From the NCBI GenBank assembly GCA_958299035.1, contig CATQJL010000112.1:80804636-80868635 (forward strand): a DNA stretch of 64,000 bases, written 5' to 3'. Below are positions 21,201-58,116 of the stretch, in pieces. The stretch is from Cylicocyclus nassatus. Lineage: Eukaryota > Nematoda > Chromadorea > Rhabditida > Strongylidae. The first letter of the stretch is position 1. Each line of letters opens with the position of its first letter. The notes beneath the pieces were generated by a model, which saw only the letters and a program-made list of their open reading frames with translations, searched no databases and was not told the origin of the DNA. The position numbers and the translations under genes were made by a program.

Positions 21201-23027
21201 GTAAATAAATGGAAAATTTCTAAAATTCTTTAAAATTTCAATTTAGCTTTGTAGATAATGTTTTTCGGGCGCGAGGCTGACGCCACGTGTGTTAATTGCC
21301 AACGTCTTGTTTTCCAAATAATAACAGGATATCTAATTTATGGTTTCGTGTCCAAGTTTAGCAACTTTTGCGAGACTTTTATTCAATACCTTCAAAAGAG
21401 CTTTGACAATAATGGATAGAATAAACGAAGTGCAATACAATGAGTTATTTAGATGTCCTCAACTTGCTTTTCAGTATTTTTTTTAAATAAAGCTTTTATA
21501 GCTTCGGCCCTGACTATGTACTGCGCCCAAGCCATCCCAAGCTTCTTCTTCCCCACCTAGCTAAATCTTCTGATTCTAAAAGACTCCGTTTTTCGGTTCC
21601 TTGATCTTTCCTTCCGTATTTGCCATATATTTTTCGTGTAACCTATGATGTCAACTGTAATTATATGTTGAAGATGATAATTTAAAGTGCTATGAGAAAA
21701 CGAGAGACCCCCAATAAGGACTTGTCTTTTCTAGATGAGTAGGAAGTAGAAAGAAAAATGAAAATTCATAAAACTGCTGAGTTCACATAGATTTCAGGGC
21801 ACAGCTTGCACAGGGTAACATAGAAAGCGGAGGAAAAAGTTTACCATCAGCCACCTCAATGTTTGATCTGGTAATCCTTCACTTTGGTATAATTAGAATC
21901 ATTCTATAGCGCTCATCACAGAAATGGGATTGCAAGTTGGAAAGCGAAGCCTATGAACATGCAGTAGGATGTTCGCTGAAAGCATCGGATCCAAACACAC
22001 GTCCTGGTGTTGGAGAAAACATCTTCACTGCCAGAGATATAGGACTCAGTCATACACAAATTGCAGATTTGGTAAGACGCATGCAGACCTCGTATTTTCG
22101 TTTTGGAAAAGTTTTTGAATGTTTAATTCATGTTTTCAAATTCTCGCTCTCTTTACTTCTCGCACTTTCATTCCAAAAGCAGTCTGCTCAACGTACTTTG
22201 GGATGATGAGGTTTTAATGCTTCATAATAGTGAGCTCCCATGCTAAGCAAATGGCAAAAGGGACTGCGAAAGACTGCTTTCAAAGCGAGAAAAACACTGC
22301 GAAAAAGGGTTTTGGTGTTTGTCACTCAGCCCCTGTATCCATTTCGCACCTCTCGCCCGTCAGATAGACTCCTAGAAAACAAGGTTTTCAGTTTCGTGCT
22401 GTTTCATCAGCACCTTGAGGTTAGTGCCATAAAAAAGAGGCGGAAGTGATAGAAATTTTGAAGAGAAAGGTTTGGTTAGACGTTGCCTTCAATCTATCAG
22501 GTTTTCAAAGAGAGATGCAAGTATACGAAGGAATTTGAAAGCACTACGTGCCACTTAGTAGTAAGGCAAGCAAAAAATTAAAAAAATCCAATTGTTGTCT
22601 TTTGTCCACATTTTACTTCGAAACAAATGTGACCTTTCAGGCAACACAAGTTTGGTGGACAGTGCCCAAGAGATATCACATCGATAGTACCCAATACACT
22701 CCAGTGGACACTATATTTTCCCAATGGAGCCAAGTCAGCACGTTTTGTTTTTCCACAATTTTCAAATCAGCCAGTGTTTAGGCAGTATGGGAGACGACGA
22801 CTAAAGTTGGTTGTTACTCGGCAAAGTGCAACGAAAATTTTCTTGTGTGCCGTTATAAACAAAGGTGTTACACATTTTACTTCTTAACAAACTCATAATT
22901 TTACTTCAGAGGAAATGAGCCTGGTCACTATATCTACCGTCAAGGTCCAGTATGCAAAGCATGCAAGTATACTTGCATTCTTAATCAAGCTTCTAAGCAT
23001 TACGGATTGTGCATCACCCCCGACTAA
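18201..23027 (+). CDS. Secreted Cys-module-array plus CAP-domain protein (gene 1, nine exons)
   Basis: The exons are 18201-18328, 18861-20074, 20794-20847, 20932-20992, 21798-21870, 21922-22071, 22641-22733, 22782-22864 and 22910-23027. All junctions use GT/AG and the joined length is an exact 657 codons plus stop. Exon 1 encodes a signal peptide (MAGRAKSSRAFMIIALQHAL..., cleavage probably near VIVQA) and ends on a GTAAGA donor in phase 2, matching exon 2. Exon 2 holds 14 modules of about 26 residues (C-x5-C-x8-C-x4-C, typically ending LGQ), then a Thr/Ala-rich mucin-like linker. The later exons give a CAP domain: LELHNTYR, KWDCKLESEAYEHAVGC, RPGVGENIF, QVWWTVP, SQWSQAVWETTTKVGC, FLVCRYKQRGNEPGHYIY and a four-Cys tail. 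CAP proteins are a major class of secreted nematode proteins; the function of this fusion is unknown. The start is chosen for the signal peptide; an in-frame ATG exists at 18105. The modules resemble EB-type Cys-rich repeats, but that assignment is unproven. Confidence 0.88.
20932..23027 (+). other. CAP (SCP/TAPS) domain block of gene 1
   Basis: Six exons encode about 192 residues, a normal single CAP domain length. CAP signature 2 is well kept (FLVCRYKQRGN). Signature 1 is recognisable as QWSQAVWETT but has Gln where the family usually has His before the aromatic residue. The usual first cavity His between the Cys of VGC and GEN is also absent (the segment is SLKASDPNTRPGVGEN). The Glu of GEN is present. 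The loss of both His residues suggests the metal-binding cavity typical of CAP proteins is not conserved; this is inference from alignment by eye. Confidence 0.8.
21100..21300 (-). repeat. Degenerate copy of the GGCTGACGCCA repeat in a gene 1 intron
   Basis: Landmarks GTGCAAGTAACTGTGTACAC, CTTGTAAATAAATGG and GCGCGAGGCTGACGCCACG match the order seen in the elements at 40561-40859 and 52515-52855. It lies in the 805-nt intron 20993-21797 and explains much of that intron's length. Confidence 0.5.
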
Positions 23028-30704: not shown

Positions 30705-32001
30705 TACGGGTTGAGAGAAAGTCTTTGAACAACATTTAGATGCTATCTTGTTTGATCATATCATGTCATATCTTATCTTATCTTTGGTGTAAATAATCTT
30801 TGAACTGTTTTATAGAAGCCCTCCAGAAATCGGATTGATATTCTTAAGCCTACCGGAATATGTCTTCTCAATCAGAGCGCGAGCTGATCGTGAAGATGCA
30901 CATGGAAGGGAAGTCACGCAGATAGCTCAACTCGGAATTTCGCGAAACACAGTGTGGTACAACTTGCGCCGTTTCAAGGAGACAAGCAGTACTCAGGACC
31001 GTCCTAGGGACGGTTGACCAGTCACAGCGAACACTGTCGCGAACCGGAAGATCATCCGAGAACGCATACGTCGTAATCCGCTAAGGAGCTTGAGTGAGCT
31101 GGCATCAGAGCTGTCCATCAGTCGTAGGACCACATCTCGGACATTGTGAAAGTGAAACTTGGGATGAAGCTCTACCGGATGCAGAAAACGCATGCACTTC
31201 AAAACAATATGAAACTGACCCGACTTCACAGGTGTCGCCGATTGCTTGAGCGTTTCTCCAAGGCACGCCACCGATCGATCCTTTTTTCTGATGAGAAAAA
31301 TCTCACCGTGGAGGAGGTTTTCAATCGCTAAAACAGCAGGATCATATCCAAGTCGGTCGAAGAAGCAAACGGCAAAGGTCGACTTGTGGAAAGTAAGCTC
31401 CATTCGGCTTCTGTGATGGTTTGGGCGGCAATCACTTCCGACGGCAAGACGCCGCTGATTTTTGTGCCTTAGAGCATCAAGGTAGACGCTGCTGAGTATT
31501 TGGATGGCATTTTGAAGAAGGTGCTGCTACCCTGGACCAGTACCCATTTTGCCGGTAGGGATTGGTGCTTCCAGCAGGACAGCGCACCTGCCCACAAGGC
31601 GAAGGTTGTTCAGGCATGGCTTCAAAGCAACGTAAAGAACTTCATTACTCCTGCAGAGTGGCCTCCGTGTTCGCCGGCCTCAATCCCCTCGACCACAGCG
31701 TATGGTCAGTTCTTGAGGCCAAGGCTTGCGCTCACCCACACAAGACTTTGGAGTTCCTGCGACGTGCTCTTCAGAATGCGTGGGAAGAAATCGACGTGGG
31801 TACCTCCGTGTCACCGTGAACAGCTTTCCCAAGCGTCTTCGAGCCTATATTTGCGCCGAAGGAGGGATCTTTGAAATGTAAAGGCACTTTTATATAGCAG
31901 AGTGTTTGATAAACATGATATATTTATTTCATGTGAATATGTTGCCTAGTTTCGTAACAACGACAAAAAACCGTGTTCAAAGACTTTCCCCCAACCCTGT
32001 A
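30705..32001 (+). mobile_element. Decayed Tc1/mariner-superfamily transposon (maT/DD37D-like)
   Basis: The left end TACGGGTTGAGAGAAAGTCT (from 30705) and the inverse of the right end AGACTTTCCCCCAACCCTGTA (to 32001) match over about 26 bp including TTTGAAC. TA dinucleotides lie at both edges, as expected for this superfamily. The 1.3-kb length is normal for a single-ORF Tc1/mariner element. The transposase inside is broken. Confidence 0.88.
30860..31881 (+). pseudogene. Tc1/mariner-type transposase pseudogene
   Basis: The frame starts at ATG 30860 (MSSQSERELIVKMHMEGKS), keeps a helix-turn-helix-like N-terminus (RNPLRSLSELASELSISRR) and shows catalytic-core landmarks: ILFSDEKNL with the first Asp, WCFQQDSAPAHKAKVV with the second Asp, and NPLDHSVWSVLEAKA, whose Asp position fits a DD37D (maT) arrangement. 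It ends KRLRAYICAEGGIFEM at 31881. It is dead: there are in-frame stops soon after the start and near 31147, 31331 and 31471, and frame changes near 31676 (within the SPDLNPLD region) and near the C-terminus at about 31800. The element carries no other gene. Confidence 0.9.
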
Positions 32002-35666: not shown

Positions 35667-36749
35667 ATGTTAAAACTGCGTTTACAGGCATTCCTACTGC
35701 TCATGCTGTGCATCTTAACAAAAGGTATCATGTTTTGTATCTTTTCACTGTTACAGAACTATGAGTTTCAGAAGTACACAGTCTAAAAACTGACACTCAA
35801 GTCGTGTACTACAAGTCAAAAGAAAAAACAATATCCAGCCCTAATCAAATTGTCTACTATGATGATAAAATAAAAAGAACATCAATTTCCAATCCTTCCC
35901 GATTTGTCTACTACGGTGATAAAAGAAACATTCTCGAATCTTCACCAAGCAGGACCATCTATTATGACTATGGAAGACCAGTAGAAAGGACGGTAATTGT
36001 TCCACAGCGGGTATGTCACGTTTTTAGTCTGCAGATTCTGTACCCCTACCAGAATATACTGTTTCATTTTTTTAAGGAATTCCTCATACAAAATCTCACA
36101 AACATCACTATTGGAATGTGAGTTTAAACTCTTCTTAGATAACTCAAAATATATAGCCTACAGTACTTGCCACGTCTATGGTGCTAAAATACCAGATTAG
36201 TAAGAAGAGCTGAGTGTGAGTACTGAAACAGGATTTTATATATTTTCAATCAAGGTGCAGAGTCGGTTAAACTGTTGAGCTTTTGATAGAATTTCCATAT
36301 GTGACGTATTTTGCGATTTGACAGCCGGTTTCACCGAAGTTTCGGGAATAACTTTGATCAGTAAATTTTGATCTTGTAGTGGAACGGCCTCATCTTCTCT
36401 TTTGCGGAAAGAATTCCTTTTCTTACATGGAATTCTTAGCATGTCTATAGCTGAAGGCATTAGACCATTGGAAATCCACAACGAAAGCTCTCTAGATTTG
36501 ATTAAATTTTTTCATAAACAGCAACCTCAAAATTACCCTTCTTGAAACTTGTTATTAATTTTTTCAACTGACACTTGTCTCAAACTCGCACTGCCAGCCC
36601 ATTATTCGCATCTAGAGCCCTTTCTGTTCTTCAAAAGATTCTTTGGATTTGCGCGAAACCAAAAAAGCAGAGGTCTGTATGCCCAAAGTCTGTATGCTGT
36701 TGACTATGTACAATCTCAGCTCAAGTCTCAACTGCTTGAGAAAGAATGA
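35667..36749 (+). CDS. Small predicted secreted protein with Tyr-Tyr repeats (gene 3)
   Basis: The exons are 35667-35724, 35772-36010, 36077-36117 and 36638-36749. Exon 1 is a clear signal peptide (MLKLRLQAFLLLMLCILTK) ending on a GT donor in phase 1; a 47-nt intron joins it to exon 2 in frame. Exon 2 holds four copies of a motif of about 17-20 residues: VVYYKSKEKTISSPNQ, IVYYDDKIKRTSISNPSR, FVYYGDKRNILESSPSR and TIYYDYGRPVERT. It ends on CGG|GTATGT in phase 0. Exons 3 and 4 (EFLIQNLTNITIG, then FFGFARNQKSRGLYAQ to a Lys/Gln-rich end) fit by phase, giving about 149 aa, but these two are less certain; exon 3 could instead end the protein at the TGA at 36119. No known family is recognised. The YY repeats suggest a structural or cross-linkable secreted protein, which is inference only. 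Confidence 0.6.
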
Positions 36750-38443
36750 GAGTGGTCAAACTCTGCACAAGTATGTATAGAGATTGTTATTTTCACTTAG
36801 ATGAAGTTGTCCTAATTTGAAGGCAATTCATGTGTTCTTTGTTTCGAAAATTCTTCTACTAAAGCATACATTTTTTCAAAGCTGTTATGGATACAAACAA
36901 AGAAAGTAAACAAATCGCAGCAACCATCCAAATTGAGATGTGTATGAATTGCTTGAAGTAGAATGATTTATCCAAAACTGTACTCCATTTCTGCTAAACG
37001 ACATTGGCTAATAAGTTACAAGCATCTATAGCAGCTGCGAAGCGCTGCTGATCTCACTGAAGCTGCTTCACTGTCTACAGCACTCTCTTAATCGTGAATT
37101 TGTTGGAGTACTCCGTAATGAACCTTCTCTTGCGATCCTCATATCAACTCTTTTCCCAGTAAAATTCGAACGCTAAGTTGCTTATTTTTGTAGCATGAAA
37201 AAAATCTAGACGTACACGCAAAAACGTTACAAAGCTTACCAACCATTCGACCATCCGGGTTCCAAAATCTCAAAGCCATGCATTTCTTTAAACTTTGCCT
37301 GTAACTAATAGGGTAATGTACAAACACAAATTTGCTTAAGTTGTCTGCGTGTATGTTTTCTACCACGATGTTCTGACATCGACTGCGCATTCAAAATCTT
37401 GCGTTCCGCGGTTAAGAAAGTTGATAATTGCAAGCGCCATGACTTCACCAAAATCCTCTTTTGTCATTGTCGCTATCGTAGTAGCACGCTAAAGACCTGT
37501 GTACAAGAGTTTGAGCAAATCCCAAATTTGACGCACATACCGTACACCCACTGTAGGCCAGAATACAGGGTACGCCAAAATTAAAGGTGCGTGTTTGCTT
37601 GAGTGCTAGAAGGATACAAGACGGGCTTGATGACGGTTCAAGCATGTACCTGTTTTCAGCAGCAATTAGCATTGTAATGCTAATGTCAAATCAGAATTTG
37701 GCTGCTTAAGTTTTCGCAAAAAAATCTCAAATCCCTCGACAGCCAAAGTATGCTCTGTACGCAGATCCAACTTTGAAAATTGACACGATATTCCTTCAAG
37801 GACCTTTCCTCTCGTTTTGAGATTGGGCACCAAAGTAGAGCAAGCCTTCGCCTTCAACACCGTTAAGTATGAAAATCTGGGAACTGATTCCAGGATGGAT
37901 CTTCGATTTTTTAGAAACATGCTTGGAGGCACTATATCAAAAGTCAGTGGTATTTTGGCCCTGCTGAGTGCGCCTAAGAATCAGAAAATGTCTTCTCAGT
38001 CAGTTTCAAAACTGTTTTCATGGACAGCTCTTATAATATACGCTCTTCTACACGTCTCATAAATAAAGAAATGCCTGTTACCTGGAAGGTTTTGCGCGTC
38101 TGAGTTTTGCTATCGATTTTGAACATAAATTGTTGTTCGTACGCAGGTATTTTTTGCAAACACATCTTTGTATTCCGTAAAAGAACAAATTTATGTAAAT
38201 GCAACTAAGACTATGTGATAGCGCAAAGTGTGCTCTCAACATCAGCTTAGAATGACTCAAAAAGGCTTCGAGTTCATTTAGTTGCAGAGCAAAGTATGAA
38301 GTTAAAAAAATTCCATTGCTTCTTTTAAAAACGGTTAATCTGATTCTTTCAGTCCCCGGAATCTTGAAAAGAGATCTCTTTTAATTCTGTAGATACCTCT
38401 TGTATTTTGGCACCCTGCAACGCTACCGTGCAAAATTGATAAT
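36750..38443. other. Intergenic DNA, no gene recognised
   Basis: No supported gene. Two frames start like signal peptides (at 37988, MSSQSVSKLFSWTALIIYAL, and at 37121, MNLLLRSSYQLFS). The second ends on a phase-2 GTAAAA site that would fit gene 2, but its hydrophobicity is weak, so it is not joined. Confidence 0.45.
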
Positions 38444-38900: not shown

Positions 38901-39487
38901 ATATATTTTTTGCTTAGGTTCCCGATAATCCCAATAGATCATCATCACCCAAATTTGTTACTTTTTCCTACTGCATATCCATCGTTAACAGGTAATGGTG
39001 ATTCTCTCCGCAGTAAGAGCGCGGTATTCGTGACTAGCATTGTCAGATAAGCCTCACAGGCAAAAATCGAGTTACATCACAATTTTCAGATTTTGGGGCT
39101 GAGATAGCTTGTTGGCCGATAAGCTTCGCAGTTCTCAAATAGAACAACTTTTTGCTGTATGAATGGTGGAAATTAAAATTCTTTGCTGCTTCGAAAATAA
39201 ATAATTTAGCAGAACAAAATATTTGCGAAGAAATAAGAGGTTGGTGGTAATATTGCAGAAGAAGCTCCATCGTATAGTCAAAATAACCTCATGATTTGTA
39301 AACAAAACCTTTTCCTACTATATTGCATGTAAGGACGCCTTCAGAACGTAGCTAAACCAGCCACGCAACTGGAATTTTCAACGCTCATAAATTTTTAGCC
39401 TATGATGCCTAACAAAAATGAAATATACTCTTGTATTTACCATCCTAATACGAGCGATATGGTATGCACCTCATTTTGGTTGATGGT

Positions 39488-41957: not shown

Positions 41958-42271
41958 ACGCTTCCCACGGCAGCAGATTATATATGTAGTATAGTCACAT
42001 ACAATCGCAAGTAGGCATACAGATTCTAAAACTAACATTATGAAATCTCCTCAAAACAAGCTGATTTCTCTCATAGATGTACCATGTGCTTAAAGGTGCG
42101 GAGGAGTAAGGGCGTCGTTCAGGCAGTTTTAAAGGGTAGAATCGTTTTTGGTGCGTGAGCTTGTCGTTACGCTTTTGGTTGGTATTAAACCTTCTCTTAC
42201 AAGACAAGTACGAAGGCTATCACGCGCGTGCAAAGCACTTGGGCTCTTAGTCTCAAATTAATAATTTTTAG

Positions 42272-45200
42272 GATGCATCCCCCTCCAGAACATAGACGCT
42301 GCAAGTCAGATTTGGATTGTCACGGCCTTCGTAACGGAAGATGTTTTCACAACATCTGTGTGGAAGGAGGAACGAGATGCTTGACAGATGCTCAATGTCC
42401 GAAGTTTCCATTTTCGCAGTGTGTTGACGCATTTTGTTTGAGACTCGGTCATCAATGCACACTAGATCAGGAATGTCCGTTATTTCCCCTAACGGTATGC
42501 GTACACAATCGATGCATCAGATTGGGGCAAAGTTGCACTCGTTCCGAAGAATGTCAGTCGTATCCACACAGCACGTGCATTAATGGCGTTTGCGAAAAAG
42601 CGATAATAAGGAGATGCAGCAAAGACAGTGAATGCGATGGATCCTTCAATCAGTATTGCGAGCGAGGGTACTGTGTTTCGTACGGGCAATATTGCAGCCA
42701 CAATTGCCCTTGCCCTAATTATCCTCATGTAAGCTGCATCGATTCACGATGTAGAAGATTTGGTCAACTATGCCGCACTTCAAAAGATTGTGCACATCCC
42801 CTTATGACTTGCCGGAGTTCCATTTGTCAGTTTGTGAGCAGGCATGGTGTTATAAAAAAATGTCAAGCAGATAATCAATGCAATCCCAACGCATACAGTT
42901 TCTGCATCAGAGGGCGTTGCGTTAGCCTCGGCCAGGACTGTAGAACAGACAGCGAATGTAGCTACGATTCACAGTGCGTCAACTCACGCTGCGTAAAACT
43001 TGGGCAGCAATGTACCAACACCATCGACTGTCCCTTCCCCATGTACACGATGTGTAAGAACGGCATTTGTCAGAAGAACTCAGGAAGTGGAGGTAGATGC
43101 TATTCGGACAAGCAGTGCAACCCTTCGGCTTACAGTTTCTGCATCAGTGGAAGTTGCATTAGCCTCGGCCAGGACTGTAGAACAGACAGCGAATGTAGCT
43201 ACGATTCACAGTGCGTCAACTCACGCTGCGTAAAACTTGGGCAGCAATGTACCAACACCATCGACTGTCCCTTCCCCATGTACACGATGTGTAAGAACGG
43301 CATTTGTCAGAAGAACTCAGGAAGTGGAGGTAGATGCTATTCGGACAAGCAGTGCAACCCTTCGGCTTACAGTTTCTGCATCAGTGGAAGTTGCATTAGC
43401 CTCGGCCAGGACTGTAGAACAGACAGCGAATGTAGCTACGATTCACAGTGCGTCAACTCACGCTGCGTAAAACTTGGGCAGCAATGTACCAACACCATCG
43501 ACTGTCCCTTCCCCATGTACACGATGTGTAAGAACGGCATTTGTCAGAAGAACTCAGGAAGTGGAGGTAGATGCTATTCGGACAAGCAGTGCAACCCTTC
43601 GGCTTACAGTTTCTGCATCAGTGGAAGTTGCATTAGCCTCGGCCAGGAATGTAGAACAGACAGCGAATGTAGCTACGATTCACAGTGCGTCAACTCACGC
43701 TGCGTAAAACTTGGGCAGCAATGTACCAACACCATCGACTGTCCCTTCCCCATGTACACGATGTGTAAGAACGGCATTTGTCAGAAGAACTCAGGAAGTG
43801 GAGGTAGATGCTACTCGGACAAGCAGTGCAACCCTTCGGCTTACAGTTTCTGCATCAGTGGAAGTTGCATTAGCCTCGGCCAGGACTGTAGAACAGACAG
43901 CGAATGCACCTACGATTCACAGTGCGTCAACTCACGCTGCGTAAAACTTGGGCAGCAATGTACCAACACCATCGACTGTCCCTTCCCCATGTACACGATG
44001 TGTAAGAACGGCATTTGTCAGAAGAACTCAGGAAGTGGAGGTAGATGCTATTCGGACAAGCAGTGCAACCCTTCGGCTTACAGTTTCTGCATCAGTGGAA
44101 GTTGCATTAGCCTCGGCCAGGACTGTAGAACAGACAGCGAATGTAGCTACGATTCACAGTGCGTCAACTCACGCTGCGTAAAACTTGGGCAGCAATGTAC
44201 CAACACCATCGATTGTCCCTTCCCCATGTACACGATGTGTAAGAACGGCATTTGTCAGAAGAACTCAGGAGGTGGAGGTAGATGCTACTCGGACAAACAG
44301 TGCAACCCTTCGGCTTACAGTTTCTGCATCAGTGGAAGTTGCATTAGCCTCGGCCAGGACTGTAGAACAGACAGCGAATGTACCTACGATTCGCAGTGCG
44401 TCAACTCACGCTGCGTAAAACTTGGGCAGCAATGTACCAACACCATCGACTGTCCTTTCCCCATGTATACGATGTGTAAGAACGGCATTTGTCAGAAGAA
44501 CTCAGGAGGTGGAGGTAGATGCTACTCGGACAAACAGTGCAACCCTTCGGCTTACAGTTTCTGCATCAGTGGAAGTTGCATTAGCCTCGGCCAGGACTGT
44601 AGAACAGACAGCGAATGTACCTACGATTCACAGTGCGTCAACTCACGCTGCGTAAAACTTGGGCAGCAATGTACCAACACCATCGACTGTCCCTTCCCCA
44701 TGTACGCGATGTGTAAGAACGGCATTTGTCAGAAGAACTCAGGAGGTGGAAGTAGATGCTATTCGGACAAGCAGTGCAACCCTTCGGCTTACAGTTTCTG
44801 CATCAGTGGAAGTTGCATTAGCCTCGGCCAGGAATGTAGAACAGACAGCGAATGTAGCTACGATTCACAGTGCGTCAACTCACGCTGCGTAAAACTTGGG
44901 CAGCAATGTACCAACACCATCGACTGTCCCTTCCCCATGTACACGATGTGTAAGAACGGCATTTGTCAGAAGAACTCAGGAAGTGGAGGTAGATGCTACT
45001 CGGACAAGCAGTGCAACCCTTCGGCTTACAGTTTCTGCATCAGTGGAAGTTGCATTAGCCTCGGCCAGGACTGTAGAACAGACAGCGAATGTACCTACGA
45101 TTCGCAGTGCGTCAACTCACGCTGCGTAAAACTTGGGCAGCAATGTACCAACACCATCGACTGTCCTTTCCCCATGTATACGATGTGTAAGAACGGCATT

Positions 45201-48200
45201 TGTCAGAAGAACTCAGGAGGTGGAGGTAGATGCTACTCGGACAAACAGTGCAACCCTTCGGCTTACAGTTTCTGCATCAGTGGAAGTTGCATTAGCCTCG
45301 GCCAGGACTGTAGAACAGACAGCGAATGTACCTACGATTCACAGTGCGTCAACTCACGCTGCGTAAAACTTGGGCAGCAATGTACCAACACCATCGACTG
45401 TCCCTTCCCCATGTACGCGATGTGTAAGAACGGCATTTGTCAGAAGAACTCAGGAGGTGGAGGTAGATGCTACTCGAACAAACAGTGCAACCCTTCGGCT
45501 TACAGTTTCTGCATCGGTGGAAGTTGCATTAGCCTCGGCCAGGACTGTAGAACAGACAGCGAATGTACCTACGATTCACAGTGCGTCAACTCACGCTGCG
45601 TAAAACTTGGGCAGCAATGTACCAACACCATCGACTGTCCCTTCCCCATGTACACGATGTGTAAGAACGGCATTTGTCAAAAGAACTCAGGAGGTGGAGG
45701 TAGATGCTACTCGGACAAGCAGTGCAACCCTTCGGCTTACAGTTTCTGCATCAGTGGAAGTTGCATTAGCCTCGGCCAGGACTGTAAAGCAGACAGCCAA
45801 TGTACCTACGATTCACAATGCGTCAACTCACGCTGCGTAAAACTTGGGCAGCAATGTACCAACACCATCGACTGTCCCTTCCCCATGTACACGATGTGTA
45901 AGAACGGCATTTGTCAGAAGAACTCAGGAAGTGGAGGTAGATGCTACTCGGACAAGCAGTGCAACCCTTCGGCTTACAGTTTCTGCATCAGTGGAAGTTG
46001 CATTAGCCTCGGCCAGGACTGTAGAACAGACAGCGAATGTACCTACGATTCGCAGTGCGTCAACTCACGCTGCGTAAAACTTGGGCAGCAATGTACCAAC
46101 ACCATCGACTGTCCTTTCCCCATGTATACGATGTGTAAGAACGGCATTTGTCAGAAGAACTCAGGAGGTGGAGGTAGATGCTACTCGGACAAACAGTGCA
46201 ACCCTTCGGCTTACAGTTTCTGCATCAGTGGAAGTTGCATTAGGCTCGGCCAGGACTGTAGAACAGACAGCGAATGTACCTACGATTCACAGTGCGTCAA
46301 CTCACGCTGCGTAAAACTTGGGCAGCAATGTACCAACACCATCGACTGTCCCTTCCCCATGTACGCGATGTGTAAGAACGGCATTTGTCAGAAGAACTCA
46401 GGAGGTGGAGGTAGATGCTACTCGAACAAACAGTGCAACCCTTCGGCTTACAGTTTCTGCATCGGTGGAAGTTGCATTAGCCTCGGCCAGGACTGTAGAA
46501 CAGACAGCGAATGTACCTACGATTCACAGTGCGTCAACTCACGCTGCGTAAAACTTGGGCAGCAATGTACCAACACCATCGACTGTCCCTTCCCCATGTA
46601 CACGATGTGTAAGAACGGCATTTGTCAAAAGAACTCAGGAGGTGGAGGTAGATGCTACTCGGACAAGCAGTGCAACCCTTCGGCTTACAGTTTCTGCATC
46701 AGTGGAAGTTGCATTAGCCTCGGCCAGGACTGTAAAGCAGACAGCCAATGTACCTACGATTCACAATGCGTCAACTCACGCTGCGTAAAACTTGGGCAGC
46801 AATGTACCAACACCATCGACTGTCCCTTCCCCATGTATACGATGTGCAAAAAGTCAGTTTGTCAGAAGCTAGAAAGTGAAAAACAATGCTACTCTGACCG
46901 ACACTGTAATCCTTCAAATTACAGCTTTTGCATTGGTGGAGGTTGTGTGACCTTAGGTCAGTACTGCTCATCGGACAGTGAATGCAGTTATAATGCACAG
47001 TGTGTAAATTCACGGTGTGTAAAACTGGGACAGCAGTGCAGCAACACCGTTGATTGTCCTTTCCCTCGGTATACAAAGTGCATTGGCTTAGTTTGTCGCA
47101 AAAGAGAGTACGGTACAACTTGCCGCTCCGATCATGATTGTAATCCTGGACTGTATTCTTTCTGTGTGCGTGGGCTTTGTGTCAGACTCGGTGAGCGGTG
47201 CTTATCTGACACTGAATGCAAATTGTATCCAAGCGCCTTATGCGTTAATAGGCGTTGCATCAAAGTGGGACAGCATTGCATTAAGAGTATGGATTGCCCA
47301 TTCTATCCACATCTGAACTGCATAAACTCGCGCTGCCGGAAAACTAAAGGCAAAAGTTCGTGTTATTCAGATCGCGAATGCAATCCTTCACATTACAGCT
47401 TCTGCATTGATGGTCAATGCACAACTTTGGGTCAGCAATGTCTTGCTGATGAACAATGTCCGTACCGTCCTCAGACCGTTTGCGTCGATTCCCGTTGCAT
47501 CAAAATTGGACAACCATGTTCGATAGCGAAAGACTGCCCTTTCTATCCTTCTATCGTATGTTCCAATTCGCTTTGTCAAAAGCCTGGGGAGCAAAAATGT
47601 ACTTTGGATCGAGATTGTAATCCCAAAGATTACATTTTTTGCATCAGTGATCGTTGCACGAAACTGGGAGATCAGTGTTCTATTGACACAGAATGCAAGT
47701 ATTACCCCAGCACAGCCTGCGTAAAGTCACGATGCATCAAAATAGGGCAACGGTGTAATAATGCACAAGATTGCACTTTTTATCCCTGGGTAACTTGTAG
47801 TAATTCACATTGTCAAAAATCTGAAAATGAAAAGTGTAGTGCAGACAAGGATTGTAACCCTATCAATTATAGCTTCTGCATCAATGGTGGATGTACTAAA
47901 CTTGGTCAGCAGTGTTCTGCCGATCGTCAATGTCCTTACCATCCCCAAACAGCATGTGTTAACTCGCGCTGCATAAAAATAGGACAGCCATGCATCAGCG
48001 TAAACGAATGTGTGTTCCACCCCTATGTGACTTGTGTGAACTCACTTTGTCAAAAAGCGAGAGAAGAAAGGTGTTACACAGATCAGCAGTGCGATCCTTT
48101 CTCATATAATTTCTGCATTGATGGTCGCTGTACTCAATTAGGACAAGACTGCTCAAGCGACAATGAATGCCCGCATCAGCCTCATGCAGTTTGCATCAAC

Positions 48201-51200
48201 TCGCGCTGCATACATCTTGGGCAACCGTGTAAGCATAACATAGATTGTCCAATGTATCCTTTCACGATATGCTTGAATTCACTGTGTCAAAGAGCTGGTA
48301 ATCAGATATGTACGTTGGATAGAGAATGTAATCCATCAGCGTATTCTTTCTGTATGCGCAGAAAATGCAGAGAACTTGGCCAACCTTGCTCTATCGATAC
48401 AGACTGTCCATTCTATCCGGTGACAGTGTGCGCTGATAGACGCTGTATTAAGGTCGGACAGCACTGCAGCAATACGCTGGATTGTCCACTTAGTAAACTA
48501 ATGGTCTGCGAAAACTCGATTTGCCAAAAAAGATCAGGCCCTACTTGTACAAAAGATAACCATTGCAATCCATCAGCATTAAGATTTTGTATAGAACAAC
48601 GCTGCGTACAACTTGGTCAAGAATGCGATGAAGACGACCAGTGCCCGTTCTACCCTCGCACGGCATGTGTCAACTCTCAATGCATAAAATTGGGACAGCA
48701 TTGTCGAAGTTCAATAGAATGCCCACTTTATCCCTATACAACATGCTCTCAATCTAGATGTCGAAAACCAGTTGAAAATAGATGTTACTCTGACAACGAC
48801 TGTAGCCCGCATTCCTATGTCTTCTGTGTTTCTGGACGTTGCAAACGACTTGGCCAAGAATGTACTTACAACAAGCAATGTCCATTCTACCCGCAAACAG
48901 CCTGCGTCAACTATAGGTGTATGAAGATTGGTCAGAGGTGTCGCTCAGGACGAGATTGCCCCTTATATCCTCTGACCACCTGCTTGAACTCCGCATGTGT
49001 CAAGGCGGATAACAGCTGCAGCATGGATCATGACTGTCCTGCAGAAATGATATGTGTTAGCCATACATGCATGCCCCTTGGCAAAACGTGTGAATCTGAC
49101 AATGACTGCCCTCCGTCTCCAGACATTTTTTGCATAAGGAGAAGGTGTGCAGTTTTGGGACAGCATTGCACCAAGGATCGGCATTGTCCATTCTATCCAA
49201 TAACACTCTGTATCAATAGAAAGTGTACGAAAATGCAAAATGAGAGATGCATGTTCGACAAGGAATGTCCTCCGCCAACAGTCTGTATTCTTGGAAAATG
49301 CACAAAACTTGGAGAATGCAAAGTTGATTCAGACTGCCCAGCTAAGGAACTTTCTTGCGTGAATTCGACGTGTGTCAGATTAGGAGTGCCTTGCAAGTCT
49401 GATAAAGAATGTCACTATCCACATACAGCTTGCATAAACTCCAAATGTGAAAGAATCGGTCAAAATTGCTCAACAGATAGAGATTGTGGAAGCAGCTCTG
49501 AATTGTTATGCATTAAGTCGAAATGTAGAAAAGTCCCACATTGCACAAAAGACAGCGAATGTCCACCAGGGAGATACTGTGTGGCTGGAGTCTGTACAGA
49601 ATTGGGCCAACCATGCGAGAGGGACAGCACCTGTCCAGGCTACCCTGACTATGCCGCTTGCATAGAAGGAAAGTGTGTTAAAGTTGGTCAAAACTGTAAA
49701 AAGAATGCGGACTGCCCTCGCACAGAGCTATCTTGTGTCTCTTCAAAATGTATCAAACTTGGATCTTGCAATTCCGACAAAGAATGCCCAGAGACGACTT
49801 ACTGTATAGCGAACCGATGTATACAAATGGGACAAGGATGTGAACGAGACACTGATTGTCCATACTATCCGAACAGTGCATGTGTTGCAGGAACATGTGT
49901 TCGTGCCGGTCAGCCTTGTACAAACGACAACGAATGCTCAAGCCATTTAATGTGCATTTACTCGAAATGTAGACCTGTTGGCGAATTTTGTACAGTAGAT
50001 ACGGATTGCAAGTATTACAATGTGACTGTATGCATCGACTCCAAATGTCTAAAACAGGGGCAGTCGTGCACAACTGATACCGACTGCGCTACACCATTGA
50101 AATGCTTGCAGTCAAAGTGTTCAAAACCAAACGACATAATGAGAAATCCGAGAGGATCAGGATGTTCGACAAGCGATGAGTGCCCCGATAATTACATTTG
50201 CAAGGATAGAGAGTGTGTTAGAGATGGACACTGCAGCTCAAACAATGATTGCAAAACGAATTATTTGTGCGTTAGTGGCACTTGTGAACTAAGTCAGGGT
50301 GAGCGTGCTACGAATCCATCTGTATCGCCTTCAACACCGCCAACAACAACAACAACAACAACAACGACGACGACGACAACGACAACAACAACAACAACGC
50401 CAACAACAACAACGACAACAACATTAACAACCAGGCGTTGCAGACGTCGACCATGGCAAGCAGTACCAAATCAGTGTGGATCAGGAGGACAAGGAGGGAG
50501 AGGAGGAAGAGGAGGACGAGGAGGAAGAGGAAGAGGACGAGGAGGTCGAACAACGAGAAAAACAACCACCACAGCAGCAACCACAACATCAACAACGCGA
50601 CAATTATTGTTAGGTGCGTCAAAAAATTCTTCCTATCTCATGAAAGAATTTTTCTGCGGCATACAAATTGTAAAAATCTCCATAATTTGACTAAAAGTTA
50701 GGAATGTTTTCTGCTACAATAGTGCTTGTAATTTGTTTAAAAAAAAGAACGTGACGCCCGAAAAGCACATATAGCTTATGGCAATGCGACAAGTTCGGCG
50801 TACTCGAACGGCCGCTTCCTCATACAAATTACGAACGGATTGACTATATTAATAAGATCAAATTTGTCTCAAAAGTTAACAAAGCAGAGATAAAATGCAG
50901 GTCAGTGAATTATTTTGTCACTATACGTAGAAAAACTGTTTTGCTAATGCGTTAACATGCATTTTGCCAAGCAAGCCGGAAATCCTATGTGTCGCAACAG
51001 AGTGTGTTTTCATCGTTTGATCGAGCACCTAAAAGCTAGGAGCTACTCGTACACCGTGCCCTTGATCACTGCCAAGGGCTAATCCACCTTGATATGCACC
51101 ACTGATAAAAGCTAAACAAATTTGTAAGTCGTCAGAAACGCTAGCAAACTTATCTTCGCTCCTCTAAGGGTTTTTCGCTCAAAATACTTAGTTTCAACAG

Positions 51201-54200
51201 CTTCTACTATACAGGGAGCCCAAAAAAGTGCACCTTGTTTGGTCGTTGATGAGTCTGTTGCATTAAGGGCAGTGTCCGGGCAATTTGGGAGTTTTGGGAT
51301 TTTACTGCTAAGCGAAAGTGGCTCTCCTCAGACATAACATCGCGCAAGTGCGAGGTCATAACGCTCGAACTAAAGCAGGGAAACGACCAGAAAGCGTGGA
51401 AGTTGCGCATTAGGGCGGGGTCCTCCAACCTGTTCTTCCTGCTAAACGGCAGGGTGCACATGCCGCCACAGTCAAAATCATAGGGTCCCGCAGTGACTCT
51501 GCGTCTCAGCCTGGCGGGGACCATCGAATTTCAAATTGTAAGGCTCTGGAGAACGCATGTTCTCGCCGTTTCGCGCCTTCTAATATGGATTTTCGGATTC
51601 AGCGTTGCGGATAACCCCCGGTAAGTGGATTTTCCAGAAATCGAGTTTTTCACTGCCTTTAATGTCTTTCGCCAATCTTTGGATGTTTCTTTATAGTGGG
51701 CTTCATCCTACATTTACGATAGGGAGCAAATTACTTCATTACTCTTCATTACTGGAATTGCTGTAGGAACTTCCAGCATAGAAATTTGTTATAAAAAAGG
51801 CCGTATTTCAAAAAATCTGAAGAATGGTAACAGATTTTTCGTAACTGCTGACTTCGCTAAATTATTTTACGGTTTTCAAGAGTTTTTAAAGGTGTAAGTC
51901 ATATTTCTGACAAACATTAGGAAAAAATTGTTACGATTTGACTAGATTAGTTCAGGAAAGAACCATTACAGTGAACTGCAATTTTTCATTTGATTAGCGA
52001 CTTTGATTAGCCTATTATACGATTTTTTGGCATGTTTGGTTTTCTTTCTGTGCCAAAATATGGCTCTCACTGACCTACATCATTCGAAGTTCCTACCGTA
52101 ATCCTACTGTAATAAAGAGTATGGGCGATTTGTCTCATACTGTAAATCTGAGATCGAAAGAATGGCAGGACTGGCGAAAGATATACCCTCGATATCATCC
52201 CATATGTCTTCCCTCAACATGACGTGGATTACGTGGCTTGATGAGGCGCCGCCTCGCCTCGGGCTTGCGCCACGTTGCGTGCGCATCTTCGGCGTGATGT
52301 GGCAACAAGAAGAACGTGGAAAAGCCTGCGCCACGTTGTGTTGAGCGCCACGTCGAGCCAAATGATGCGCTCGCAACGTGGCGCAAGCCCGAGGCGAGGC
52401 GGCGCCTCATCAAGCCACGTAATCCACGTCATGTTGAGGGAAGACATATGGGATGATATCGAGGGTAAATGCGAGAGGTTTTTAACGAATAAACAGTGTG
52501 CGTAATTTTAGAACACCCGTACGTCGGTGGCGCACCCAGAATTTGGGCTTGAGGGGGGGGGGACAAAAATTTTTTTCCAATAAAGGTGCTAGCGTCAGCC
52601 ACGCACTCTGAAAAATTGTCTGGTATGATCCCTAGAATTTTCGCAGGCTCGTGACTCCGAAATTTCAAAAAGGAAGCATGGCGTCAGCCACGCCCCCGAA
52701 GATTTTTTTTCTAAGGCTAAAATGAATTTTTAAAAAGTTTTAAAATTATCTTAATTATTTACAAGTGCAGACCAAAATTTTATAACCCATGTAAGTAACT
52801 TTCAAAAATTTCGCGACCCGAGGGCCCCCCCCTCTCGGTGCGTCACTGCTGTAGTGGATCTCTAACAACTGGTTTCTAGCAGATAACAAAATTTTTTTAT
52901 TTGAGAATCGTTGCCCTTCAATCTAAGCGATGATTGCTTTTATGCGAGCAAATCTGTATATAGAAATCTTAACTCGTGTCTTACAGCGACTGATGCAGCG
53001 ACTCCTGCGATGAATACTGAGCAAACTCGGTCTTTGGCGCAAGCTCAGTTCCTGACGCAAGCGGGAAAGAAGAAAGTGCTTGAGCTACATAATCGCTACA
53101 GGTAAAATAAGGGTAGCCGTTCCTCTTAGTCTGTTTGCACACTACCTGATACGATTCAAAATGTAAAGCAGAATGTCGATTATGTTCACCCATTATTGGA
53201 ATCTGCGGAAATCGAATTTAGCAGATAGCAGGCTCTAAGAGGGGTAAAGAACATGGGCCGCCAATAGGCTCCACCTGCGCGGGCAGCTGACATGAGCTGT
53301 GATGGACAGAAGTGTCGCAGATGTCTGTGCGGGACCTCCTCTTTCGGCTACCTAATGTTCTCTTACCCTCCAAGAAAATCCCAAAACTACAGTAATTTAG
53401 GTCTGATGTTGCAACTGGCAGAGTGCAAGGACAAGGTGGAGCTAGGCTACCAACAGCTACTACAATGTTCATTATGGTACAAACCAACATGACTGCTTAG
53501 TTTTTTCCTCACTGTATTTGCGTTGCAGCGATACGACGATCAGCTCGCAAACGATGCAGGAGATCATGCTGTTCAATGTACAATGACAGGCTCGGAGCGT
53601 TCACAAAGGCCTCGTGACGAAGGAGAAAATTACTACCAAGCTCAAAAAGGTAGAAGTGAAATCGAGATGGTGACAGAGGTATGTTCAAGGAATTTTCCCA
53701 AAGAGATCTTTTTCACTAAAAACGTGCCTTCCACAGTGAAAAAAAAAATGACTCAGTGTAGTAGTCGTTTCTCATTCCACTTTCGCTCTAGGAATTGATA
53801 GTCTTAGAAGTTGGATAACATATATGGAGCAGTGGACTGACTGGCCTCCGCATAAAATAGAATATTCGGCGCCTTTGAAGGCACCGCTCACCCAAATTCT
53901 CGACTTCCGTGTTTTTGTCGCTAGAGGACTTTCTCGGGTATGTGTCAAGATGAACGATAGCTGGTACCAGTGGCGCGCGGGGTTATGAACTGGCAATAAT
54001 GTATTCGCTCGAAGCTCCGCCCTACTGCGGCGGACGAGTTTCTCGGACGATCCCGTTAAGTAAAAATAACTTTTGATAGTGAGATATATGCTTGTTGCAA
54101 ATTGGGTGAAGCTTGACTATTTACAAGATCTTGTTTTGATTTTTTTTGGCTGTCACTGAACAGTTGATGTGTTGGTCGTAAAATTCGAGAGATTTGCTCA

Positions 54201-57200
54201 TTTACCTATGAATGACCGTGACTCCTGGATACCCAACTTCGAAGTGTGAAATCATCTAGAACAACTCAGGCATGATTGTTTGAGTGGCCTCACATCTTAC
54301 GACTAGTTCACACGCAATTTCGATTGAGTTACAGATCGATTTATATTGAGGATAGCAGTTTTTGTAAGCAAAATAAAAAATTTTGATATTTAGAGCAGAT
54401 TCGAAAATTTAAGAGTGCAGTATGATTTTCCTGAAATCTGAGAAAATTTATGTGATATGACCTCATATTTGCAAAACGAGTTAGTTTGCTTGGAACAAAA
54501 GTCGCCTATAATGCTTTTTTTGAATTCTCGTCGCAATGAAATCTGTTTTTAGCTATGTTAGGGTTTTCAAACTTACTTTTCCGATAAAAGAAATAATGGT
54601 GTTGGTCATTTCAGCAATAATAATAGTATTTCTCGATAAGCTGACTTCTTTTTGAATTAAATTTGAGAGTGCACAACAAAGTATCATCTTATATATAAAG
54701 CTGTATGTCTGTATGTCTGTCTGTATGTGTGTACGTATGTTCCGAATAGAAAATTCCATTTCTGGACCGATCCGGACCAAACTTGGCACACATACACTTC
54801 GGGCCCCGGCGGGTGTCATAGGCTACTTTTCGTCATCGATCGATATCGATTTTATCGATTTTTATCGATTTTTTTGCAGAGTTTACCTACGGGGCTGGGA
54901 GTTGGCACATGGGGATAATCAAGCATGGGAATTCCGAATACAATATTAGTGTTCAGGATTATCGATTACTTTTGTCGATTTTATCGATTTTTTTACAAAG
55001 TTTGAGCTACGGGGCTGGGAGTTTGCACAGGGGGGTAATCGAGCATGGGGATTTCGAATACAATATTAGTTCTCAGGATTATCGATTACTTTTAACGATT
55101 TTATCGATTTTTTTGTAAAGTTTGACTACAGTTAGTTACTGCGAGTCTGCAGTAACTGTAAGACTTTTAACTTGGACATCTTTTAAGCCCTGGAGTTCAA
55201 TGCAGATACATAGCAAAAAGTTAATTACGTGCAAAAGTGGCGTCAAAAAGAGATGACTCAATTGATTGTTGATTTTTGAAAAACTCACTGTAGAGCTGAA
55301 AATATTCTAGGGTGGAAATGCAGTGTGCATCTGTTGTTGTTCTAATTAGCCAACATTGCTTCAATAAAACGGACTCAAAATTACACTAACCGTTCACCAA
55401 AAAGTAGCTCCACGCTAATTTTACCGGTTTCACATGAAAACCTCGCAGAAGTTGTTTACATCATATTCTTCATGATCAGAATTTTCCGGGGAGGTTCAAA
55501 GCAGTTTGAGGCGCTGTTTAGCTCTGAGGACAAGCATGGACGCGCAGACGCGCACGGTACGATATTCATGGGGTGCATAAAGCCAGTACCTGCTGTGGGC
55601 GTGCCACACTTTGCCTTCCTTAAGAGAAGATGTTGCTCAAAAACTATAGAGTAGGACCAGTGCGAGCCTCTGCGAAGCAGAGGTGACGCACTGGTATTCA
55701 ATATGGTAACAGATGCGGATAGGTAAAAACACTTTTCCAAGCATATTCGAAACAACTTCCTCAGACCTGCAAGAAAAAATCATTTTGGACAAGCTTACTA
55801 GGAACAAATAATTGAAGTACATTAGAAAGAGCTGGCGAACTAATTTTATATTGAAAAATGATCTGAACTGTTTTCCATTTCAACTGAAATCTTGAAATCT
55901 ATTGTTATCCAAATTGCAACCAACTGAATAAGCATGAACGAAGTATTAGAAAGTTTTCTAATAGCTGCACGCATTCCTAGGCTTATTAACAAGGGGGCGG
56001 AGCGATCAGCGCACCGTGTACGGTACCCAGCTGGCGGCTGGCACATGCTATCGTTCATCTTGACTGCCACCCGACTTTCTCATGTCCCTGATTCCGAATA
56101 TCAAATCGAGAATCCGCGAAAACCCCGACAATCCGCGTTCCTCAGAACTCGGAGGGCGAGTTCTCCAGAATGGATTGCTTGGGTGCGCACTCGCACGGAT
56201 GGGCGGGACAAACGCCCATTAAAGGGGAGAAGCTAACTTCAGGGCCGGCATGAGTTCGTTTCTAGCTTTCGTGCTTTTTAGAAACAAAGCCCCCTCCTCC
56301 CTTAATTTTCGCAAATTTTTACGAAGTCGCCTGACCCTTATCGGACACGTCGACTAAAAACCCCTAAACTAATTTGCATCTTTAAGAACCTAGGAAACGA
56401 TATCCCCCTTGCTTTTTCGCCCCGAAAGCGAAGTTCAGCCTGCTTCCAAATGATCTGTGCAGGGCCTGGCTAGGAAGCAAATCGTCATCCGAAGCGTTTT
56501 GAAGCTTTTCTAGCTTCGAATGCAACTTTTGATAGCGTGACTTGGGTATCATCAACATCTCATCGACCCCATTTTTGGTGGACGATGCCATTGATACCCT
56601 CTGCAGATGTGAGCCAAATGCATTCTACTTCGTGCTCGAAAAAGCTATAAAATGCATCTTAACCTTCGCAATGACTTGCAAAGTTCAGCAGATAACCAGT
56701 TCAGCGCTGCAACCCTCCCAAATCGTTTTTTTACTACTTCACCGTCTCCGCGAGTGCTAGGTCGGCTCAGGAGAAGGACAGGTCCAGTTATCTTACCGAG
56801 TCATAGCGGCGCCTCATACAGTACGCCATTCCTCTTCAATGGTTCACGCTGAACCCCATCATTACATTGTAGGTTACAGACGGCTATTCCTAGTTTCACC
56901 TCTCAACTATTCGAAGGCAGCAAGCAGGAATTTCAATATCTGGGATTTCATGTAAACACTGATGAAGGCAGTGACTAAGCGCTTATCCTAGGGGTAGCTC
57001 CTAAGATTTTCTACGGCTTCATCATTCGAATGTCACATTCAGCCGGATTAGTTCATACCGTACTCAAAGTCAGTGGGTCAGCGAAATGGAACCCTGTCAG
57101 ATTTTGATAGTTTCAGATAGTAGGTCCCCCGCCTAATACAACGTACACCGGAACTCCAACCCCATCCTTCAATTCATGCGCTAAGTTCGGAAAAAGCGCC

Positions 57201-58116
57201 GAAACTCCACCAATGACGCCCACTCAATGGAAGTGGGCGAAGGTGGAATTTTGAAGCTCCTTTACCAGGACTCAGCGCATGAATTGGAGGATGGGGTTGG
57301 GGTTACGGTGTACTAGGGGGGTCTACTATCTAACACTACCATATCTGACAGGGGTTTTTGCCGATTCACTGCCTTTCAAGACATTGATTGTCTCGCAAAG
57401 TACGGTTTAAGACTGAGCCGAGAATTTAATTTCTCAGCGATGAATAAACCGTATGAGCTGTAACTTCGGCAGTGGCTTAGCTGAGACCCCTCAAAAGATT
57501 CTACATAAAAAGTTTAGAAACTCAGATTGTCTAGGCACTGTTTTTGAGCAAATCATTGCGATAATCTGCCAGCTGACACCTATAAGTATGCTTGTCCATC
57601 TTGCCCCTCGATCGCAAACGAAGGCGAAAGCCACAGAACATATAGGGCAATGTTGTTGTAATTAATCTCTTGCGGGAGACTCCTATATCTGAAACCGAGA
57701 GAGAGAAAAGAACATCTTTTTAGGCTGTAAATAGTTGGTATAATGCAGCAAGTACTTATGGTATGCCAACCAACGTTATATATCACGATTCTTTTGGGAC
57801 GCAACTAAAATTCTTCACACAGGTAACTCTCAGAACTAATCAAAATCAACTAGAAATAACATTACGTTTTAGCTAGCAAGTGCATGGACCTACAAAATCG
57901 GATGCGCATACGCCGACTGCGGTTACTCATATTTCTTAGTATGCAGATACTTCCCCAAGTGAGCTTAATTCTTCAAGATTTAGTAGAATTTCACAATTCC
58001 GCTTTTCCAGTGGTAACCATGAGGGTAAAATTCTTTATCCTTCTGGAAGTCCGGCGGTATCGTGTTCAAATGGAAAAGCCTACGAATACAATAATCTCTG
58101 TGTGGGCCCCCAATGA
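42272..58116 (+). CDS. Giant Cys-module-array plus CAP-domain protein (gene 2), 5' exon not found
   Basis: The exons are 42272-50613, 52987-53101, 53401-53476, 53529-53678, 57724-57822, 57873-57958 and 58011-58116. All junctions are GT/AG and the phases give one open frame of about 2990 residues. The 8.3-kb exon follows a TTTTTAG acceptor and carries about 102 modules of C-x5-C-x(6-8)-C-x4-C type. Seven modules come first, then 17 units of three modules at 237 bp, then more diverged triplets and single modules. Next come a poly-Thr linker, a Gly/Arg-rich run and a second Thr-rich run. The CAP domain reads LELHNRYRSDVATG, LPTATTMFIM, RYDDQLANDAGDHAVQC, GENYYQ, AVNSWYNAAS, FFTQLASAWTYKIGC, FLVCRYFPNGNHEGKILY and a short Cys tail. 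The acceptor needs a phase-2 signal-peptide exon like that of gene 1. The product is likely secreted or surface-associated; its function is unknown. Confidence 0.88.
42861..46886 (+). repeat. Coding tandem array: 17 units of 237 bp (79 codons)
   Basis: Each unit encodes three 4-Cys modules: CYSDKQCNPSAYSFC..., CRTDSECSYDSQC... and CTNTIDCPFPMYTMC..., ending KNSGSGGR or KNSGGGGR. Unit starts fall at 42861 plus multiples of 237; the first and last units are the most diverged. Differences between units are single substitutions (Ser or Thr at SECS/T, Asp or Glu at GQD/E, TMC or AMC, SDK or SNK). A +1 reading frame in every unit is also open for 77 codons; it is a shadow of the repeat. Confidence 0.97.
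50341..50430 (+). repeat. (ACA/ACG)n triplet microsatellite coding for poly-Thr
   Basis: About 27 Thr codons, only briefly interrupted by Pro and Leu, follow the last Cys module of gene 2. A mixture of ACA and ACG blocks shows repeat slippage. It is followed by a cluster of GGA/AGA triplets (50480-50545) coding for a Gly/Arg-rich run and then another Thr-rich stretch. The minus-strand Leu-rich ORF here is an artefact of these triplets. Confidence 0.9.
51263..51662. repeat. MITE-like element with TTAAGGGCAGTG ends in a gene 2 intron
   Basis: TTAAGGGCAGTGTCCGGGCA at the left is mirrored by CACTGCCTTTAA at the right. It sits in the 2373-nt intron 50614-52986, together with the elements at 52184-52467 and 52515-52855. 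The ends resemble the 17393 and 57062 elements. Confidence 0.65.
52184..52467. repeat. Near-perfect palindromic element with CCCTCGATATC ends, copy 1
   Basis: TACCCTCGATATCATCCCAT continues through AACATGACGTGGATTACGTG and GAGGCGCCGCCTCGCC, and its inverse closes the element at 52467. Arms are about 80-95 bp, and TA flanks both ends. The GC-rich centre contains repeated CCACGTTG-type motifs. Copy 2 is at 60144-60427. ORFs read through the palindrome on both strands. Confidence 0.92.
52515..52855 (-). repeat. MITE with CAGTG(A/G)CG(C/T)ACC ends, copy 2 (inverted)
   Basis: It ends GGTGCGTCACTGCTG, the inverse of the start of the 40561 copy, and begins GGTGGCGCACCCAG. It shares the AAAATTCATTTT, TGACGCCATGC and poly-G/poly-C segments in the opposite orientation. 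It ends about 130 bp before the first CAP exon of gene 2. Confidence 0.7.
53876..53960 (-). repeat. Partial copy of the AAAGGCACCG element in the gene 2 intron
   Basis: GAAGGCACCGCTCACCCAAA and TTCTCGACTTCCGTG are the inverse of the right end of the 41588-41957 element. The other end is missing or mutated beyond recognition. Confidence 0.55.
54060..54690 (+). repeat. Second copy of the 39.7-40.5 kb repeat, inside the gene 2 intron
   Basis: It follows the 39720-40520 copy from AACTTTTGATAGTGAGATAT, past GACTCCTGGATACCCAACTT and AACTCAGGCATGATTGTTTG, to the TTGGTCATTTCAGCAATAAT region. The open frame of the first copy is interrupted here by several stops. Confidence 0.75.
54694..55125 (+). repeat. 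TATATATAAAGC / ATCGATTTT interspersed repeat with two tandem 119-bp units
   Basis: The element starts TATATATAAAGCTGTATGTC, runs through a TGTCTG stretch, AAATTCCATTTCTGGACC and GGGCCCCGGCGGGTGTCAT, then enters two direct repeats of about 119 bp. Each repeat has TTTTATCGATTTTTTT, CTACGGGGCTGGGAGTT, GCACA.GGGG.TAATC and ATACAATATTAGT. Other copies carry one unit or none, so this one has expanded. Confidence 0.75.
55652..55696 (+). repeat. Solo double-hairpin sequence
   Basis: GGACCAGTGCGAGCCTCTGC then GAAGCAGAGGTGACGCACTGG reproduces only the terminal hairpin of the 15343/27716 repeat family. The rest of that repeat is not next to it. Confidence 0.8.
55965..56075 (+). repeat. Second copy of the 40870-40985 repeat, in the gene 2 intron
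   Basis: GCATTCCTAGGCTTATTAAC, GGGGGCGGAGCGATCAGCGC and TACGGTACCCAGCTGGCGGC match 40870-40985 closely. It ends near TCGTTCATCTTGACTGCC. Confidence 0.75.
56243..56475. repeat. Partial copy of the GGGCCCGGCACGAG element
   Basis: CAGGGCCGGCATGAGTTCG near 56242 resembles an element end, and CAGGGCCTGGC at 56459 may be a decayed second end. Between them lie no coding features. It is in the gene 2 intron. Confidence 0.4.
57062..57379. repeat. MITE-like inverted-repeat element in the gene 2 intron
   Basis: ACTCAAAGTCAGTGGGTCAG continues to ACCCTGTCAG at the left; CTGACAGGGGTTTTTGCCGA and TTCACTGCCTTTCAAG close the right. Inside, CCAACCCCATCCTTCAATTC is the inverse of GAATTGGAGGATGGGGTTGG. It ends 345 bp before the WYNAAS exon. 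Confidence 0.75.

Follow-up and report, generated by a model that had tools for sequence, protein, structure and literature searches.

Here we describe two predicted genes of the nematode Cylicocyclus nassatus, in each of which a long exon encoding an array of four-cysteine modules is followed by six small exons encoding a CAP domain. Both lie in the window, the stretch of 64,000 nucleotides that was analysed (C112:80804636-80868635), and were compared with the 514.7-Mb assembly (369 contigs) in genome searches. Gene 2 is the larger of the two. Gene 1 (18861-23027, + strand) is a smaller paralogue that was absent from an earlier note on this DNA, and it provides the best support for a fusion of array and CAP domain. 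The features are listed in Table 1.

Table 1. Features of the two genes and of the neighbouring arrays (window coordinates unless a contig is named)
Feature	Position	Strand	Content	Basis
Gene 1 array exon	18861-20074	+	14 four-Cys modules with a Thr-rich linker; phase 2 at the 5' border and phase 1 at the 3' border	
Gene 1 CAP exons	20932-20992, 21798-21870, 21922-22071, 22641-22733, 22782-22864, 22910-23027	+	CAP domain	Borders, phases, Pfam CAP
Signal-peptide-like exon	35667-35724	+	Best upstream candidate, with the following exon	
Tyr-Tyr exon	35771-36010	+	Four Tyr-Tyr repeats	
Gene 2 array exon	42272-50613	+	102 four-Cys modules with a Thr-rich/RGG linker; phase 2 at the 5' border and phase 1 at the 3' border	Open frame, module count, Pfam EB/DUF7107, splice borders
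Recently amplified part	43098-46868	+	Near-identical 237-bp units of three modules each	
Older, diverged part	46887-49016	+	Nine units; three-module period of 78-80 residues as in the recent part	
Gene 2 linker	50286-50612	+	Thr-rich (41/109 residues), Arg-Gly-rich, pI 12	
Gene 2 CAP exon 1	52987-53101	+	HNRYR inside	Borders, Pfam CAP
Gene 2 CAP exon 2	53401-53476	+		Borders, Pfam CAP
Gene 2 CAP exon 3	53529-53678	+	GEN inside	Borders, Pfam CAP
Gene 2 CAP exon 4	57724-57822	+	Tetrad His replaced by Phe (KFFTQ)	Borders, alignment
Gene 2 CAP exon 5	57873-57958	+		Borders, Pfam CAP
Gene 2 CAP exon 6	58011-58116	+	Stop codon inside	Borders, Pfam CAP
Eight upstream array exons	L012-L015 (C112:80754636-80794635)	-	14 or 18 modules by pattern; no CAP detectable	

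The array exon of gene 2, with likely borders at 42272 and 50613, lies in a stop-free open frame of 2833 codons (42189-50690). It is preceded by TTTTTAG and ends in AG/GTGCGT. Position 42272 has the look of an internal 3' splice site and not of a start. The module region holds 409 Cys, which form 102 groups of four once one extra Cys is dropped; the figure of about 102 four-Cys modules in one 8.3-kb exon, proposed earlier, is thus exact. The proposed size of about 3000 residues likewise agrees with the gene 2 model, which without its N-terminal exon(s) comes to 2990 residues and 328.5 kDa. A Pfam search of the exon returned the EB module (PF01683) with 42 stretches (E 5.7e-90, 295.7 bits), and two single 79-aa units scored 38.6 and 34.1 bits (curated cut-off 24.3). 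The best EB stretches shown span positions 16-40 and 17-39 of 52, none of them a whole module. The EB label of the earlier note is therefore upheld by scores above the cut-off but covers only about half of the model, so that "EB-like" is the safer name. DUF7107 (PF23416) was matched in 25 stretches (E 3.3e-80, best 1-46/48), with no match in one old triplet (47361-47597) searched alone. The stretch 49284-50266 passes the cut-off for the Dickkopf N-terminal Cys-rich region (PF04706; 26.9 vs 25 bits), and in this match lies the likeness to Dickkopf proteins, which are short signalling proteins and not long arrays. In a structure prediction for six modules (mean pLDDT 85.1), each module is modelled as a three-residue helical turn and a hairpin; at a pTM of 0.50, the geometry from module to module may be that of a rod or of a coil.

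So Cys-rich a product could be a gel- or matrix-forming protein, whose interchain Cys would crosslink arrays into a coat or lining. The Thr-rich linker with its Arg-Gly patch and pI of 12 would suit such a protein, as would the weak likeness to the DPY module of Dumpy (E 0.0046, 17.3 bits, cut-off 27). The Cys nevertheless come in fours (102 modules, one over), suggesting pairing inside modules, and neither a mucin nor a VWD domain came up when the array exon was searched against Pfam; we regard a gel or matrix as rather unlikely. Dumpy itself, a giant extracellular fibre of insects with DPY modules and not known to have a CAP domain, may be analogous as a secreted modular rod of giant size, but with a DPY score below the cut-off gene 2 is no member of that family.

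In the gene 2 array, Tandem Repeats Finder reported a 237-bp repeat in 16.8 copies (97% matches), a number to be read with the reservation that an assembly can miscount near-identical units. The three-module period (79-aa unit) is present in both halves of the array, which grew by tandem repetition of the three-module unit; one half is old and diverged, the other stems from a recent burst. The 15 units from 43098 differ pairwise by 0-9 bases. Units 1 and 2, 3 and 8, 9 and 13, and 11 and 15 are identical, and units 10 and 14 show one difference; this pattern probably reflects the duplication of a block some four units long. Twenty of the 79 codons vary among the 15 units, 11 nonsynonymously and 9 synonymously, which with 192.7 nonsynonymous and 44.3 synonymous sites amounts to about 0.057 and 0.203 per site (ratio about 0.28). 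This low ratio, together with the retention of every Cys and the absence of stops, points to constraint during the recent growth.

The six small exons of gene 2 have AG/GT borders, are phase-compatible and join in frame up to the stop codon into 210 residues. They had been described as six phase-fitting exons with a complete CAP domain, and the Pfam search bears this out with a match to CAP (PF00188) over positions 1-117 of 117 (E 1e-13, 52.6 bits; cut-off 21.1). Among solved structures, hookworm ASPs come closest (3nt8, E 2e-29; 1u53, E 1.7e-23). According to the motif definitions in a legend of PMC10433639 (CAP2, CAP3 as HNxxR, and CAP4), CAP3 is present in gene 2 (HNRYR) and gene 1 (HNTYR). 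By eye, CAP2 fits in gene 2 (FLVCRYFPNGN) and is off at one position in gene 1 (FLVCRYKQRGN), and CAP4 fits in gene 1 (GENI), with GENY of gene 2 deviating in its final residue. The CAP1 His is absent from both genes, which have KFFTQ (gene 2, by alignment) and IFSQWSQ (gene 1) against GHYTQ of Na-ASP-2; one His of the metal tetrad is thus gone in both CAP domains. The CAP cavity "may contain" this tetrad (excerpt of PMC7773830), and given that "may", an intact tetrad marks a subset of CAP domains. The fourth intron of gene 2, between CAP exons 3 and 4, measures 4,045 bp and holds repeats, so that an alternative end of gene 2 is possible. At 54850-55126 this intron contains a 120-bp tandem repeat with ATCGATTTT stretches.

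Gene 1 has the same organization. Its CAP exons match the whole Pfam CAP model (1-117/117; E 1.5e-16, 61.8 bits; cut-off 21.1), and an alignment of 192 columns gives 33% identity between the CAP domains of the two genes (E 6.8e-31). All six introns are phase-matched between the genes (1, 2, 0, 0, 0, 2), and both array exons open in phase 2. On the strength of sequence comparison, the exon with 102 modules and the six exons for the CAP domain likely constitute one gene. The earlier note had joined array and CAP in a single gene; this now has indirect backing from a paralogue that agrees in exon order and in phases. The two parts could instead be adjoining genes, a CAP-less module-array gene like the copies on the opposite strand and then an ordinary CAP gene. 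The eight upstream array exons without a detectable CAP indicate that an array does not require one, and CAP matches are common elsewhere in the genome (at least 25 listed after scoring 150 of 314 candidates). A CAP gene standing alone would, however, require a signal-peptide exon in the gap between array and CAP exons, which measures 857 bp for gene 1 and 2,373 bp for gene 2. When these gaps were scanned for exons that start with ATG, encode a hydrophobic core and end in a phase-1 donor, gene 1 gave no candidate and gene 2 gave three, from two ATGs and all with poor donors; the lack of a convincing signal-peptide exon in either gap favours one gene. The order of array, linker and CAP with six identical phases is moreover seen twice, and the CAP-linked arrays end in phase 1, whereas five of the seven opposite-strand arrays examined at their 3' end have an AAG/GT donor in phase 0. 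We therefore consider two adjoining genes improbable and retain the single-gene model.

Four of the eight opposite-strand arrays are copies of the other four, with 93.8-97.6% identity over stretches of 1.1-2.5 kb. Their acceptor-like site nearest the first module is in phase 2 in five of the eight by pattern and in a sixth by eye; additional acceptor-like sites in other phases are also present. Apart from genes 1 and 2 themselves, a tblastn search of 184 kb with both CAP domains found no CAP at E<=0.1, and so none near these arrays. At its end, the array exon at L012 23-2362 (minus strand) carries a Cys cluster and a long repeat of Pro and His (HHPKPPRPRP); in its duplicate at C112:80776845-80778875 a CGGCGPSHRPCH repeat takes that place. 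In the whole assembly, all 68 repeat-unit matches and all 37 matches of the gene 1 array at E<=0.001, in searches that detect close relatives only, fall within C112:80755447-80854920, a cluster of about 100 kb. EB genes of other kinds are found on other contigs (27 matches listed at E<=1e-5), among them a large one with a 1217-aa open frame (G000:C326:28267639-28270383, minus strand). None of the 25 CAP matches listed lies within 300 kb of the 27 EB matches listed, but this exon-by-exon search misses genes 1 and 2 themselves; their absence from both lists makes the result a weak one, as spliced or EB-like genes escape. The gene 2 CAP finds its own six exons as its best genome matches, followed by one at E 0.0014; no close copy was found, which is only indicative, the gene 1 CAP itself being missing from the list at E<=0.1.

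The best upstream candidate for the N-terminal part of gene 2 is the signal-peptide-like exon at 35667 with the Tyr-Tyr-repeat exon, the latter unique in the genome. As the start of gene 2 this pair was set aside, its donor being in phase 0 against the phase 2 needed at the array acceptor; it could be a gene of its own or the start of gene 2. The sole candidate for a bridging exon between 36010 and the array (37915-37967) was not convincing. A 14-codon start at 39418-39461 has a phase that fits the gene 2 array and a middling donor. Upstream of gene 1, no convincing N-terminal exon was found. The array paralogue at C112:80776845-80778875 (minus strand) has, by eye, a signal-peptide-like start inside the exon. 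For gene 2, we infer secretion through a predicted N-terminal exon.

Like the hookworm ASPs (ASP/SCP-TAPS, CAP superfamily), both genes have a CAP domain over the full Pfam span; unlike them, a module array precedes the one CAP domain, the tetrad His is lost, and the CAP domain of gene 2 has 6 Cys. Na-ASP-2 has one CAP domain and Na-ASP-1 two (excerpt of PMC7773830), and a single or double CAP domain occurs in 54 of the 198 proteins of the adult N. americanus secretome (excerpt of PMC7274458). With EB and DUF7107 proteins, gene 2 shares many small Cys modules above the Pfam cut-offs, and differs in the partial EB stretch (16-40/52), the 102 modules in one exon and the joined CAP domain. The protein database yielded one relative (1402 candidates), OSTOST_07740 of Ostertagia ostertagi (P0001, 377 aa), an EB-like module array (E 2.1e-42 to gene 1) with no CAP in the predicted protein, the level at which it was compared. 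Searches of the same database gave no hit for the array (2940 candidates) or for the gene 1 CAP (107 candidates), and no second species with an array-CAP fusion. Known ASPs did not come up in the CAP search either, so the database seems nematode-poor and absence from it means little. In the literature searched, which misses most subscription journals, no such fusion was found, and an excerpt of PMC5763927 treats EB and CAP as separate transcripts in Anisakis. The architecture described earlier as unusual remains so by that literature; it is not a one-off, however, with two such genes in the window. EB-like modules and CAP are known separately; what is new is their combination, and the length. 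In adult A. ceylanicum the most abundant secretion is a protein of 3373 residues, for which conservation is reported in other hookworms only (excerpt of PMC9865600).

We propose that the product of gene 2 is a long, disulfide-hardened secreted rod bearing a CAP domain, an explanation that as a whole we hold at about even chances. The upstream exon would supply a signal peptide, and the modules would fold independently with paired Cys into an extended, protease-resistant rod of about 330 kDa, the array determining both reach and protease resistance. Repetition of the 237-bp unit would lengthen the array by unequal exchange. The Thr-rich linker would be O-glycosylated and keep the CAP domain away from the rod. 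At the C-terminal tip the CAP domain would bind a lipid or a partner and not act through a metal site, the tetrad His being absent from both genes. Na-ASP-2 binds sterol and palmitate (excerpt of PMC7773830), which makes lipid a sensible first ligand for the gene 2 CAP. Splicing across the long introns and the rod shape of the product are both what we infer, and this mechanism is put forward with somewhat less than even confidence. Alternatively, the secretion could be a multivalent protease inhibitor or knottin-like product, in which the modules bind targets, the array adds avidity and the CAP domain is a passenger; we think this unlikely. For the rod, pharyngeal secretion is a first guess at the site of action, by analogy with dissected pharyngeal tissue of Anisakis, where EB transcripts were enriched 18.6- and 58.9-fold and CAP transcripts 9.7- and 9.3-fold (excerpt of PMC5763927).

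CAP proteins are prominent strongylid secretions, and little is known of how they act (excerpt of PMC11745416). If the rod model is true, a CAP domain on a very long Cys-rich stalk means that some CAP proteins act from a tethered or extended position. More tentatively still, strongylids may secrete a new class of giant rods, EB-like-array CAP proteins, in which the 237-bp coding satellite is a length dial whose copy number alters the reach of a metal-less CAP tip. The near-identical units predict length variation, and if the length-dial reading is true, array length should differ between worms of one species. Gene 1 with its 14 modules and gene 2 with its 102 lend themselves to a comparison of what length does.

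Two further open frames were noted. One near the cluster (L011 1559-4183, + strand), of 875 codons with reverse transcriptase and endonuclease domains, belongs to a LINE-like element. The other, in the window at 31473-31871 (+ strand), had no Pfam match at E<=0.01; by eye and by its motif it resembles the end of a Tc1/mariner transposase.
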